64,000 nt of DNA, taken from an uncultured Ruminococcus sp. (GTDB lineage Bacteria; Bacillota; Clostridia; Oscillospirales; Acutalibacteraceae). A program made the position numbers and the translations under genes. Below are positions 1 to 55,618 of the stretch, piece by piece. Under the pieces are notes generated by a model, which was not told the origin of the DNA, made no database searches, and saw only the letters and a list, made by a program, of their open reading frames with translations. Each line of letters opens with the position of its first letter. Position 1 is the stretch's first letter. The stretch covers positions 62,001 to 126,000 of the forward strand of contig CADBCC010000001.1 of NCBI GenBank assembly GCA_902793125.1. The letters run 5' to 3'.

Positions 1-479
1 GCGAATTTCATAATCTCGGAAGCCTGGATATTAATAGGCCCGACTTCAATCCATCTGTGTACGTTTCCGGGCAGGAATAGTACAACAACCAAAGTAAGAT
101 ACGCAAACCCCAAAATCAGAGGCGCGACCTTATGCAGTTTATTATAATTAAAAAACGATATTCCTATCATCGCCGCAAGTCCGATTACCGCGTAGATAAG
201 CTGACGTCTTACGTAAAAATAGCTGTCGTTAAGCTTATAGTACGCCGAGGGATAACTCGCAGAAAACATCATTATCATTCCGATAATTACAAGTACAAGA
301 ACTAAAAGCAAAAACGGTAAATCAAGCCCCATACCTCTTTCAAGAAGAGGACGGTGCACCTTTTTTTTGCGCTCAGGCTGTTGTTTTTCGGGGCGCCTGC
401 CGCGACGTCGGTTATTAACTTTTTCGTCATAAAGTTTGTTTACGTCGGCGCGACGCATTACTTCAACCTGTGGCTGCAT
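1..479 (-). CDS. ftsW: FtsW, SEDS peptidoglycan glycosyltransferase (partial, C-terminus off the left edge)
   Basis: The first 159 residues of a SEDS-family protein, the membrane glycan polymerase of the divisome that works with a class B PBP. A basic cytoplasmic N-terminus (about 50 residues, rich in Arg/Lys) leads into a hydrophobic segment followed by MMFSASYPSAYY, then further membrane helices. The family signature RWIEVGPINIQASEIMKFA lies at the truncated edge. The ATG at 479 is preceded by GAGGAG, which belongs to the terminal hairpin of the upstream intergenic repeat. It is the last visible gene of the division/wall cluster. The murD that usually lies between mraY and ftsW is absent. 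RodA/SpoVE paralogs look alike, but the cluster position favours FtsW/SpoVE. Confidence 0.93.
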   Translation of the reverse strand, partial: MQPQVEVMRRADVNKLYDEKVNNRRRGRRPEKQQPERKKKVHRPLLERGMGLDLPFLLLVLVLVIIGMIMMFSASYPSAYYKLNDSYFYVRRQLIYAVIGLAAMIGISFFNYNKLHKVAPLILGFAYLTLVVVLFLPGNVHRWIEVGPINIQASEIMKF

Positions 480-487
480 TTTTTATT

Positions 488-681
488 CTCCTCGTCAAAC
501 AGGTAGTTTCTATCTTAATTTCATATCCCCCGTTCCTTTAGTTCATTATGAAGTTTTGGATACTTGGGAAAAGTTCATCTTTGTTACTTCAATGTCAAAC
601 AGGTAGTTCCTATCTTAATTTCATATCCCCACACCATTAATTCTATATCAAGTTTTAGCGGCTTGGGGAAAGTTCATCTAT
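488..681 (-). repeat. Two tandem copies of the ~96-bp intergenic repeat, upstream of ftsW
   Basis: Read on the minus strand, copy one is 681-593 and copy two is 580-488, about 104 bp apart. Both share ATGAACTTT, an AAAAC stretch, GGGGATATGAAATTAAGATAG and ACTACCTGTTTGAC. In copy two TATCC can pair with GGATA around an inner TTCAT/ATGAA hairpin, and its 3' end, GACGAGGAG, serves as the ftsW ribosome binding site. Copy one is more diverged in the stem region. See the copies at 1776-2077, 38084-38160, 53393-53686 and 54712-54906. Confidence 0.8.
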
Positions 682-688
682 ACAATTT

Positions 689-1748: not shown

Positions 1749-1775
1749 AACTTCAATTCATCCTTTCTTTTTTAA

Positions 1776-2077
1776 TGTCCTCGTCAAGCTTGGACGTTCC
1801 TATCTTAAATGTGATGTCCCCCGTACGTTTTAAGCTCTATCAGGTTTTGGATAGATAGGAGAGGTTCTGCTATACGGTTTATGTAATTACGAATTGCTTT
1901 ACGCATTACGAATTAACTATGTACCTCGTACGTTTATGCCCTATCAGGTTTTGGATAGATAGGAGAGGTTCTGCTATGCGGTTTATGTAATTACGAATTG
2001 CATTACGCATTACGAATTAACTATGTACCTCGTACGTTTATGCCCTATCAGTTTTTGGACAGATAGGAGTCTTCTGC
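1776..2077 (-). repeat. Three-unit repeat array (one full, two partial copies) between pbp and mraY
   Basis: Read on the minus strand, two partial units (2077-2025 and 1974-1921, 104 bp apart) are followed by a full unit (1870-1776). The full copy has CCTATCT pairing with AGATAGG as the outer stem, ATCCAAAACCTGATAG, CGTACGGGGGACATCACATT, and ends in GTCC...GACGAGGAC. The partial units keep the 5' half through CGTACG and then break into AT-rich spacers (around 1877-1918 and 1981-2020) built of 7-bp steps such as AATTCGT and AATGCGT. This 350-bp gap holds no gene. Confidence 0.8.
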
Positions 2078-37985: not shown

Positions 37986-38083
37986 GCGTTTTAGTTAGAA
38001 GTTTTCAGTAGAATGAAATAGGTTTTAAGAATTGTTTAGGAAAAGTTCATAATCCCTTATAACTTAAAACAGCAATTGCATAG

Positions 38084-38160
38084 ATGAACCTATCCTCCAT
38101 ATCCAAAACTTGACAGAGGCACTAAGGTTCGGGGGATAGCACATTTCATATAGGGAATGC
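38084..38160 (+). repeat. Single copy of the ~96-bp repeat, antisense to its neighbours
   Basis: ATGAACCTATCC, CATATCCAAAACTTGACAG, ACTAAGGTTCGGGGGATAG, CACATTTCATATAGGG. The outer stem CCTAT/ATAGG and the inner TATCC/GGATA are kept. It lacks a heptamer tract and the GACGAGGA end. A reversed fragment of the element's 5' end (GGAAAAGTTCAT at 38039-38050) lies upstream. The 390-bp gap 37883-38272 otherwise holds the queT leader and a terminator; no gene. Confidence 0.75.
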
Positions 38161-38192
38161 ATGTACTGACGTAGATATATAAAAGCCGAGAA

Positions 38193-38214
38193 GAGCTGCC
38201 TTATTAGGCAGCTC
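38193..38214 (-). terminator. Terminator of the small unknown gene
   Basis: GAGCTGCCT-AATA-AGGCAGCTC, about 60 bp after the stop, followed on the minus strand by TTCTCGGCTTTTATA; the T-run is imperfect. Confidence 0.55.
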
Positions 38215-38272
38215 CTCCCGGATTTAGAAGTTTTGAAATTAACGTGAAAACGTGGATGTCTGTTTAATATGC

Positions 38273-53392: not shown

Positions 53393-53686
53393 GAGCGCAG
53401 AACGTATCCTCAATATCCAAAACCTGACAAAGGAACTAAGGTCAGGGGGATATCACATTTCAGGAAGGAACGTCCGCGACAAATAGCTGAGCGCAGAACG
53501 TATCCTCAATATCCAAAACCTGACAGAGAAACTAAGGTCAGGGGGATATCACATTTCAGAAAGGAACGTCCGCGACAAATAGCTGAGCGCAGAACCTATC
53601 CAATGTATCCAAAACCTGACAAAGGAACTAAGGTCAGGGGGATATCACATTTCAGAAAGGAACGACCTCGTCTGACGAGGACAATA
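53393..53686 (+). repeat. Three tandem 96-bp repeat units upstream of metA
   Basis: Units start at 53393, 53489 and 53585, exactly 96 bp apart, and the first two differ at only a few bases. Each folds as outer CCT/AGG, then ATATCC with GGATAT, an AAAA bulge, then CCTGAC with GTCAGG closing AAAGGAACTAAG. The third unit ends differently: CCTCG-TCTGA-CGAGG followed by ACAATAAAA and the metA ATG, putting the ribosome binding site GAGGA in a hairpin. No gene is in the 475-bp gap. Confidence 0.9.
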
Positions 53687-53691
53687 AAAAA

Positions 53692-54621
53692 ATGCCGATT
53701 AAAGTACAGAGTCATCTTCCCGCGATAAAGATTTTAGAAGAAGAAAATATCTTTGTAATGTCGGAAGAAAGGGCTTTAAGTCAGGATATACGACCGCTTA
53801 AGATTGTAATTTTAAATCTTATGCCGACTAAAATTGAAACAGAAACTCAGCTTATGCGGCTTTTGGGAAATACTCCCCTGCAGGTCGATATTGAGCTTTT
53901 GCAGACTGCTACCCACAACTCAAAAAACACCTCGCGCCGTCATCTTACTACTTTTTACAAAACTTTCAACGAGATAAAAGACCAGCGTTTTGACGGTATG
54001 ATTGTCACAGGCGCGCCTGTTGAACAGCTTGATTTCGAGGAAGTTGATTACTGGGAAGAGCTCTGCGAGATTCTTAACTGGGCTAAGAAAAATGTTTACT
54101 CGACTTTCTTCATCTGCTGGGGCGCTCAGGCAGGGCTTTATTACCGCTACGGCGTCAGGAAATATGAATTTAAGGAAAAGCTTTCGGGCGTATTCGAGCA
54201 CGTTATTCTTAATCCACTTCATCCGCTTCTGAGAGGTTTTGACGATTCTTTTAAAATACCTCATTCAAGATATACGGGTGTTGTTTTATCAGATATTGAA
54301 AAACATCCTAATCTTGAAGTCCTCGCAAAAAGCGACGAGGCGGGCGTTTCGATTGTATGCAGTAAAAACGGACGGGAGTTCTATATTACAGGCCACGCAG
54401 AATATGACCGCGACACGCTTGCAAGAGAGTATTTCAGGGATATTAACAAGGGGCTTGATATAAAAGTTCCGAAGCATTATTTCCCCGACGATAACCCCTG
54501 CGCTTCTCCGCCGATGAGCTGGAAAAGCTACGCGTCGCTCCTTTACTCAAACTGGCTTAACTATTACGTTTACCAGCAGACTCCGTACGACCTCGAAGAC
54601 CTTAAAAAACTTTGTGATTAA
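53692..54621 (+). CDS. metA: MetA, homoserine O-acetyltransferase (MetA type)
   Basis: First committed step of methionine synthesis. 309 residues; glutamine-amidotransferase-like fold with nucleophile Cys142 in [16 protein letters not shown] and the His/Glu pair in [12 protein letters not shown]. Residue 111 is Glu ([15 protein letters not shown]); in studied MetA enzymes Glu there goes with acetyl-CoA and Gly with succinyl-CoA, so acetyl-CoA is predicted. The start is the ATG at 53692 after GACGAGGAC, which lies in the terminal hairpin of the repeat array. Confidence 0.94.
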
Positions 54622-54676: not shown

Positions 54677-54711
54677 CCGGAGATTTATATATTAAAAAGG
54701 CAGATTTTTAT

Positions 54712-54906
54712 TGTCCTCGTCAAACGAAGCGTTCCTATATTAAATTTTATATCCCCCGTACGTTTATTATCCTATCAGGTTTTGGATAAAGAGGATAAGT
54801 TCCGCGTTTTTTCTTACGTGTCAAACGAGGGCGTTCCTATCTTAAATGTGATGTCCCCCGTACGTTTAATATCCTATCAGGTTTTGGATTAAGATAATAA
54901 GTTCCA
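54712..54906 (-). repeat. Two tandem copies of the ~96-bp repeat after sigF
   Basis: On the minus strand unit one is 54906-54819 and unit two about 54810-54712. Shared: GGAACTTAT, TAATCCAAAACCTGATAGGAT, AAACGTACGGGGGA, TTTAAKATAGGAACG. The outer stem is CTTAT/ATAGG with a G-U pair. Unit two ends CTTCG-TTTG-ACGAGG plus ACAATAAAAA as at metA, but no gene follows, only the metA terminator. The 340-bp gap 54622-54961 holds no gene. Confidence 0.8.
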
Positions 54907-54926
54907 TACTCCAAATTAAGAAACAG

Positions 54927-54962
54927 GAATTAATCACTGAGAACTGAGAGCTTAGAACCGAC
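54927..54962 (-). repeat. Heptanucleotide tract after the sigF stop
   Basis: On the minus strand shortly after TAG come TAAGCTC, TCAGTTC and TCAGTGA in 7-bp steps, then the repeat units. Confidence 0.45.
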
Positions 54963-55618
54963 TAACTTATCTCCAGTTTTTTCCGCATAAAAAGAAGTAT
55001 CTTTTTCTCGCGCCTGCTTATCTGCACCTGAGTCATATTAAGCACCTTTGCGGTTTCGCTTTGGGTTTTGCACCTGAAATAACGCAGTTCGATTATCTTT
55101 TTATCCTCGTTATCAAGCTCTTTAATAACCTGTCTCAGCGCTAACTTTTCCGTCAGCTTATCCATTATATCATCCGAGGGCAAATCAATTTGTCGGTTTT
55201 CGTCGTCGTCAAAATTATTTGTAAGCGAAAGCGGAAAGCGCGCCGAATTTATCGCGTCCGCGATTTTTTCCTTGCTTACCTCTAATTTCTCGGCAAGCTC
55301 CTCTACCGTGGGAGCGCGGTTGTGCTTTTCCCGGAAAGCTTCTGTTTCACGATTCACTTTAAGCGAAAGCTCTTTTAAACTTCGGCTCACCTTTACTGCT
55401 CCGCCGTCGCGGAAAAGCCTTTTTATCTCGCCTAAAATCACGGGTACAGCATAGGTTGAGAGTTGAAGCTTTAAATCGGGATTAAAATTCTTAACGGCTT
55501 TTACAAGTCCCATACACCCCGCTGAGTAGAGTTCCTCGTATTCAATACCGCGGTTTTTAAAACGCTTACAACACGCGTGTACCAGGGCGAGGTTGCTTTC
55601 AACCATACTATCGTTCAT
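54962..55618 (-). CDS. sigF: Sigma-F, forespore sigma factor
   Basis: 218 residues. Region 2 (EYEELYSAGCMGLVKAVKNFNP, LSTYAVPVILGEIKRLFRDGG), region 3 (KVSRSLKELSLKVNRE) and region 4 (KTQSETAKVLNMTQVQISRREKK) match sigma-F. It is about 40 residues shorter at the N-terminus than the B. subtilis protein: no in-frame start exists upstream, a stop lying eight codons back inside spoIIAB. ATGA overlap with spoIIAB. Sigma-G is similar, but the operon decides. Confidence 0.95.
   Translation of the reverse strand: MNDSMVESNLALVHACCKRFKNRGIEYEELYSAGCMGLVKAVKNFNPDLKLQLSTYAVPVILGEIKRLFRDGGAVKVSRSLKELSLKVNRETEAFREKHNRAPTVEELAEKLEVSKEKIADAINSARFPLSLTNNFDDDENRQIDLPSDDIMDKLTEKLALRQVIKELDNEDKKIIELRYFRCKTQSETAKVLNMTQVQISRREKKILLFMRKKLEIS

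Follow-up and report, generated by a model that had tools for sequence, protein, structure and literature searches.

A lineage-specific dispersed repeat family with a unit of about 100 bp and an A-rich 3' end in uncultured rumen bacteria

Described repeat families and the units of the window

Mycobacterial MIRUs are characterized by their unit size and are known from array typing as direct arrays of varying number. They are described as apparently mobile repeats that insert at start codons with little harm to the gene, which is spared because the reading frame of the MIRU is coupled to it (PMC12548453). The BOX, RUP, and SPRITE repeats of pneumococcus are reported from few related species and are usually shorter than 200 bp; BOX is composed of repeated modules, terminal inverted repeats and target duplications are features of BOX and RUP, and all three are predicted to form stem-loops and are over-represented between convergent genes (PMC3049150). 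In Beggiatoaceae, intergenic direct repeats of the heptamer TAACTGA are described upstream of start codons (PMC4679880).

The family reported here resembles MIRUs, as these are portrayed in that account, in being short repeats at start codons and in forming direct arrays of varying number, but no coupled frame is maintained and the Shine-Dalgarno sequence of the tail appears to spare the gene. Like BOX, RUP, and SPRITE as that report describes them, it consists of small interspersed repeats with a narrow range, whereas no fold is supported here and the 3' end is directed towards gene starts. It shares with the Beggiatoaceae repeats, in the form described, heptamer direct repeats upstream of start codons; unlike those, the heptamers vary in sequence and lie 5' of a separate unit of ~100 bp. 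Compared by description only, the nearest known kind appears to be the mycobacterial MIRU, from which the family differs, and we do not file it as a member.

A profile search of the 64-kb stretch of DNA analysed (the window) found 11 units at five places, in agreement with the count of an earlier note on this DNA, and the shared blocks that it had listed were recovered as ATCCAAAAC...GGGGGA...GGAAC in nine aligned units, with few exceptions. The best unit has an E value of 1.2e-22 and further matches lie on many other contigs, which excludes chance. On the reverse strand, two units (494-575 and 594-674, within 477..682) lie upstream of an FtsW/RodA/SpoVE-family gene (3-479; Pfam PF01098), whose ATG at 479 is immediately preceded by the last unit's tail, GAGGAG at 493-488. 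Three more reverse-strand units, one full (1783-1866) and two 3'-truncated (1906-1970 and 2010-2069), are located within 1759..2073 upstream of mraY, which starts at 1748 (Pfam PF00953 and the MraY signature). A native AAAGGA stands between the repeat tail and the mraY start codon in the window, and the mraY sites of genomes G091 and bin503 are without a detected unit. The single forward-strand unit at 38087-38170 (within 38083..38187) has its A-run adjoining an inverted repeat, a AGGAGCTGCC-type hairpin near 38194-38218. An array of three forward-strand units (53401-53481, 53497-53577, and 53593-53676, within 53397..53691) is directly followed by metA, the product of which is homoserine O-succinyltransferase (Pfam PF04204); the tail GAGGA is at 53677-53681 and the ATG at 53692. 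The last two units (54719-54801 and 54820-54903, within 54702..54907, reverse strand) lie where metA and a sigma-70-family gene (54962-55618, reverse strand; Pfam PF04542/PF04545) converge, in the gap between their 3' ends.

Copy number and distribution of the family

The repeats are a lineage-specific dispersed non-coding family with a unit of about 100 bp, found in a group of uncultured rumen bacteria. In the 2.0-Mb genome to which the window belongs, a 72-unit model gave 73 matches at E<=0.01, spread over many contigs (among the best 150 of 784 candidates), and a previous search gave 65 matches at E<=0.05 (among the best 150 of 385 candidates). The hundreds of copies per genome projected in the earlier note were thus not reached; the window, with 11 units in 3.2% of the genome length, is denser in units than the genome. 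Matches were found in 21 of 150 genomes of the genus and, across the order, in one of 147, the window's own, both under stricter filters and with 26 candidates scored in each genome, and weak or few copies may therefore escape. When a collection of 84,980 species, which may omit the genome of the window, was scanned for an exact pattern, 33 stretches were recovered from nine assemblies, all of them rumen-type MAGs, titled Ruminococcus (five), Clostridiales (one), Clostridia (one), and 'bacterium' (two), with red deer, goat rumen, and cattle abomasum as the sources in the titles.

On a tree of 30 metA proteins (19 from carriers and 11 from non-carriers), the carrier label changes three times compared with 9.1 times in shuffles, indicating that it follows descent. 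Missing from this tree are two of the 21 carriers: G079, with two matches on one contig and a metA that ranked too low to be among the 30, and G137, with no metA match.

The 64-kb window has no Rfam match at the gathering level, and the best sub-threshold match near the metA array has an E value of only 4.5; ten further loci gave seven gathering-level matches, named tRNA, tmRNA, and SRP RNA. A phage and plasmid search with the metA array as the query and a pattern scan of viral contigs gave no match, and phage or plasmid carriage was rejected on these results. No description of the ~100-bp repeat family appeared among the open-access papers listed in the literature searches either, and as far as these searches extend, the family is undescribed, as had been suspected.

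The 3' end, site occupancy, and flanking sequence

The most telling feature of the family, which the earlier note missed, is that its 3' end keeps a fixed place directly in front of gene starts and other signals. The 3' end reads GA[C/T]G[A/T]GGANA, followed by two or three A/T and an A-run, where the shared sequence ends sharply; of 153 distinct clusters, 141 could be anchored and give this consensus. Behind the tail stands a start codon, a native Shine-Dalgarno sequence with its start codon, a -35 box, a hairpin, or a tRNA or tmRNA. When the 169 last copies were classed by crude rules, under which some labels are wrong, 58 abut a start codon with the repeat as the only close site and 11 more precede a native site, the start-codon placement known of MIRUs; 14 stand at promoters and 23 at hairpins, and 63 are unclassified. 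Because clusters were grouped by strand, head-to-tail order within them follows from the grouping. Genomes G114 and G086 have arrays placed back to back on opposite strands (L212, L213, and L222), and their arrays are repeatedly accompanied by a short CTCCCTATCT..AGATAGGGAG-type palindrome (L213 5200-5400 and L222 9530-9700).

Further observations concern single loci. At L079 3046, L090 3282, L129 789, and L225 9741, a -35 TTGAC(A) box follows immediately on the A-run. The 3' end alone, about 30 bases, stands in tandem duplicate behind some units (L101 ~3010, L097 ~2960, and L120 ~12540). From L082 3098 onward, a unit lies upstream of what by eye is a T-box-leader-like sequence (GGTACCACC).

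Twelve comparisons of orthologous sites, picked by hand, show sites occupied in one genome and empty in relatives. At the 38083 site, the unit is absent from G091 (L194), where the downstream sequence is 93% identical. A serA-like gene has a native GGAGG-type site in bin503 (L138) and the repeat tail at its place in G000 (L068), and at two other sites the repeat tail reaches the native -35 (L139 compared with L084, and L225 compared with L197). Across their full length, the intergenic stretches of filled and empty sites cannot be aligned, and replacement is therefore not separable from insertion or from insertion plus decay; no target-site duplication was found in their flanks, which align too loosely. 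Some sites are shared by distant carriers, such as that before a triosephosphate-isomerase-like gene, as read from its sequence (L106, L108, L148, and L229). At metA the unit is patchy, being present at 4 of 19 carrier metA loci (G000, G074, G117, and G005), and the upstream gene is about 25 nt from metA in G091 compared with 476 nt in the window. G086 and G114 could be compared at about ten sites, where their arrays differ in copy number (among them 5 v 2, 5 v 3, and 4 v 1), and of the two genomes G114 alone has the site L212 at 11023 occupied. Units are more alike within an array than between loci in G000 (0.86 v 0.68), G018 (0.85 v 0.73), and G086 (0.83 v 0.73), and hardly so in G114 (0.82 v 0.79).

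Sequence with a seven-base period lies directly 5' of the arrays in 25% of 148 upstream flanks (including the malformed L164, counted as positive), compared with 1.2% of 166 downstream flanks and 1.6% of 313 control windows; the share for any other period between 4 and 12 is at most 1.4%. Counted by bases, the seven-base period covers 15.4% of the 60-nt 5' flanks, compared with 3.1% of the 3' flanks and 1.6% of the remaining intergenic sequence. Some of the stretches in both counts come from the same genome and overlap. All eight genome groups have more of it in the 5' flanks than in the remaining intergenic sequence; relative to the 3' flanks the excess is small in G114 (4.3% vs 3.5%), and G018 has more of it in the 3' flanks (36 of 230 bases) than in the 5' flanks. 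The periodic sequence differs from one site to another (for example L114 3070, L142 4021, L158 922, L132 1051, and 686-720 of the window). Since heptamer-like sequence also occurs without a unit, for example before mraY in G091 and bin503, and is uneven in G114 and G018, we treat its relation to the repeat as an association and not as a shown cause. The seven-base-period sequence may be a footprint of the insertion process of the repeat.

The tail as a probable ribosome-binding site and the alternatives

If the tail is a ribosome-binding site only next to a start codon, a better match to the anti-Shine-Dalgarno sequence is expected there. With each orthologous site entered once per genome, AGGAG is present in 29 of 58 start-abutting tails, a class that required a loose tail motif and in which at least one member (L104) resembles a promoter, compared with 6 among the 111 remaining last tails and 4 among the 99 internal ones (of these 99, six were anchored on GATAGGGAC rather than on the tail); all non-start tails together have 10 in 210. 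The start codon lies at Shine-Dalgarno distance, 9-12 nt behind the motif, in 53 of the 58 (searched range 4-16). The excess at starts holds when stratified by genome (28 observed vs 15.7 expected, chi2 30.2) and within the genome of the window (7 of 19 start-abutting tails vs 0 of 21, p=0.0027). The match also depends on the position in the array: before start codons, AGGAG is present in 29 of 58 last copies and 1 of 26 internal copies (p=1.8e-5). The corresponding difference in the remaining arrays (32 of 124 vs 12 of 107) arises from the scanned stretch extending into native sites. Half of the start-abutting tails are without AGGAG, and 18 of the 58 have T for A (GTGGA). From this comparison of sequences, we read the tail as being under selection as the ribosome-binding site of the gene that it abuts.

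The family consists of interspersed repeats that place an A-rich 3' end at the next functional element and whose tail, where that element is a start codon, is probably the Shine-Dalgarno sequence of the gene. Units of about 100 bp, in one to a few head-to-tail copies, set their A-rich 3' end against that element, and at start codons the GGA or AGGAG of the tail would act as the Shine-Dalgarno sequence used by ribosomes. In each array, selection would maintain and improve the last tail and leave inner copies to drift, and local duplication and loss would alter the array length. A role as a ribosome site would make copies hard to lose, and the copies may once have spread by transposition or gene conversion.

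The alternative that survives best is a neutral or selfish MITE-type repeat, in which the Shine-Dalgarno-like tail arose by chance, targeting of A-tracts brings the repeat to gene starts, and only harmless insertions survive. Such a repeat would explain the occupied sites that are empty in relatives, the targeting of promoters, hairpins, and RNA genes beyond start codons, and the presence of GA[CT]GNGGA in many copies without a start codon, but it does not account for the concentration of AGGAG at start codons. Nor is a terminal inverted repeat evident, since the imperfect ends GCAG..CCTATC/GATAGG..CTGC pair at the rate that column composition predicts. A Y1-type transposase gene has no match in the genome of the window and is found in 6 of 16 carriers vs 10 of 14 non-carriers, and a reverse transcriptase gene, likewise without a match in that genome, is found in 5 of 16 vs 5 of 14; both were rejected as the mover because the genes do not follow the carriers. 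The mobile element considered in the earlier note is favoured in part by the empty sites of relatives, but neither a target duplication nor a moving enzyme was found. We consider a purely neutral or selfish repeat rather unlikely.

A transcriptional element, with the A-run as an upstream promoter element or the unit as an insulator of the downstream gene, would agree with the copies whose 3' end adjoins a -35 box (14 of 169 by the crude rule, for example L139 and L225), but the identical tail also stands before start codons and RNA genes, and we regard this explanation as improbable.

Less probable again is a structured cis-regulatory RNA or riboswitch-like leader. The earlier note had proposed a structured RNA with nested stems kept through base changes, and the conserved blocks ATCCAAAAC and GGGGGA and the partly self-complementary consensus are in line with such an RNA. 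In 72 units, however, the three proposed stems have 77.0% paired cells vs 76.6% in shuffles and 6 pairs with double changes vs 6.2. Slid structures pair less (40-53%), indicating that the consensus is partly self-complementary but that pairing is not maintained. With 9 units, RNAalifold gave seven pairs, none of them with a compensatory change, and with 88 units it gave no structure; a conserved fold was rejected. The strongest coupling in 209 units outside G114 and G086, that of columns 78-97 (A-T 98, C-T 16, T-A 14), looks partly like a base pair and is the one coupled pair in favour of a fold; the other top couplings are short-range linked variants or subfamily differences. Likewise, a hairpin hiding the Shine-Dalgarno sequence, seen by eye in some G000 copies, is not supported by shuffle tests, in which, of seven pairs, G000 had two above shuffles (p 0.02 and 0.04), the genomes other than G000, G114, and G086 had one (p 0.046), and G114 and G086 had none. 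Neither the Rfam result nor the copies before promoters, which lie outside the transcripts of those promoters, fit a structured leader.

The least probable explanation is a MIRU-like unit whose small frame ends at the gene start and feeds ribosomes by translational coupling: some copies have one frame open throughout, with TAA a few bases before the start codon, but entropy is flat across codon positions in three groups and ATG-started frames ending there are not commoner at start-abutting tails (12 of 58 vs 64 of 210 elsewhere, p=0.19), and both a protein-coding unit and translational coupling were rejected.

Beyond the reading of the tail as the Shine-Dalgarno sequence of the abutted gene, we tentatively suggest, as a possibility short of the probable, that the family persists by supplying a replacement ribosome-binding site, the tail, a Shine-Dalgarno sequence with an A-rich spacer, landing exactly at a start codon, displacing the native site, and resisting deletion. 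If the reading of the tail as the gene's Shine-Dalgarno sequence is right, 19 of the 36 classified arrays in the genome of the window would supply the ribosome-binding site of the next gene, including metA and the cell-division-type gene, and translation initiation would have been rewired across the clade by a dispersed repeat, by a testable route that would be simpler than the reading-frame coupling proposed for MIRUs.
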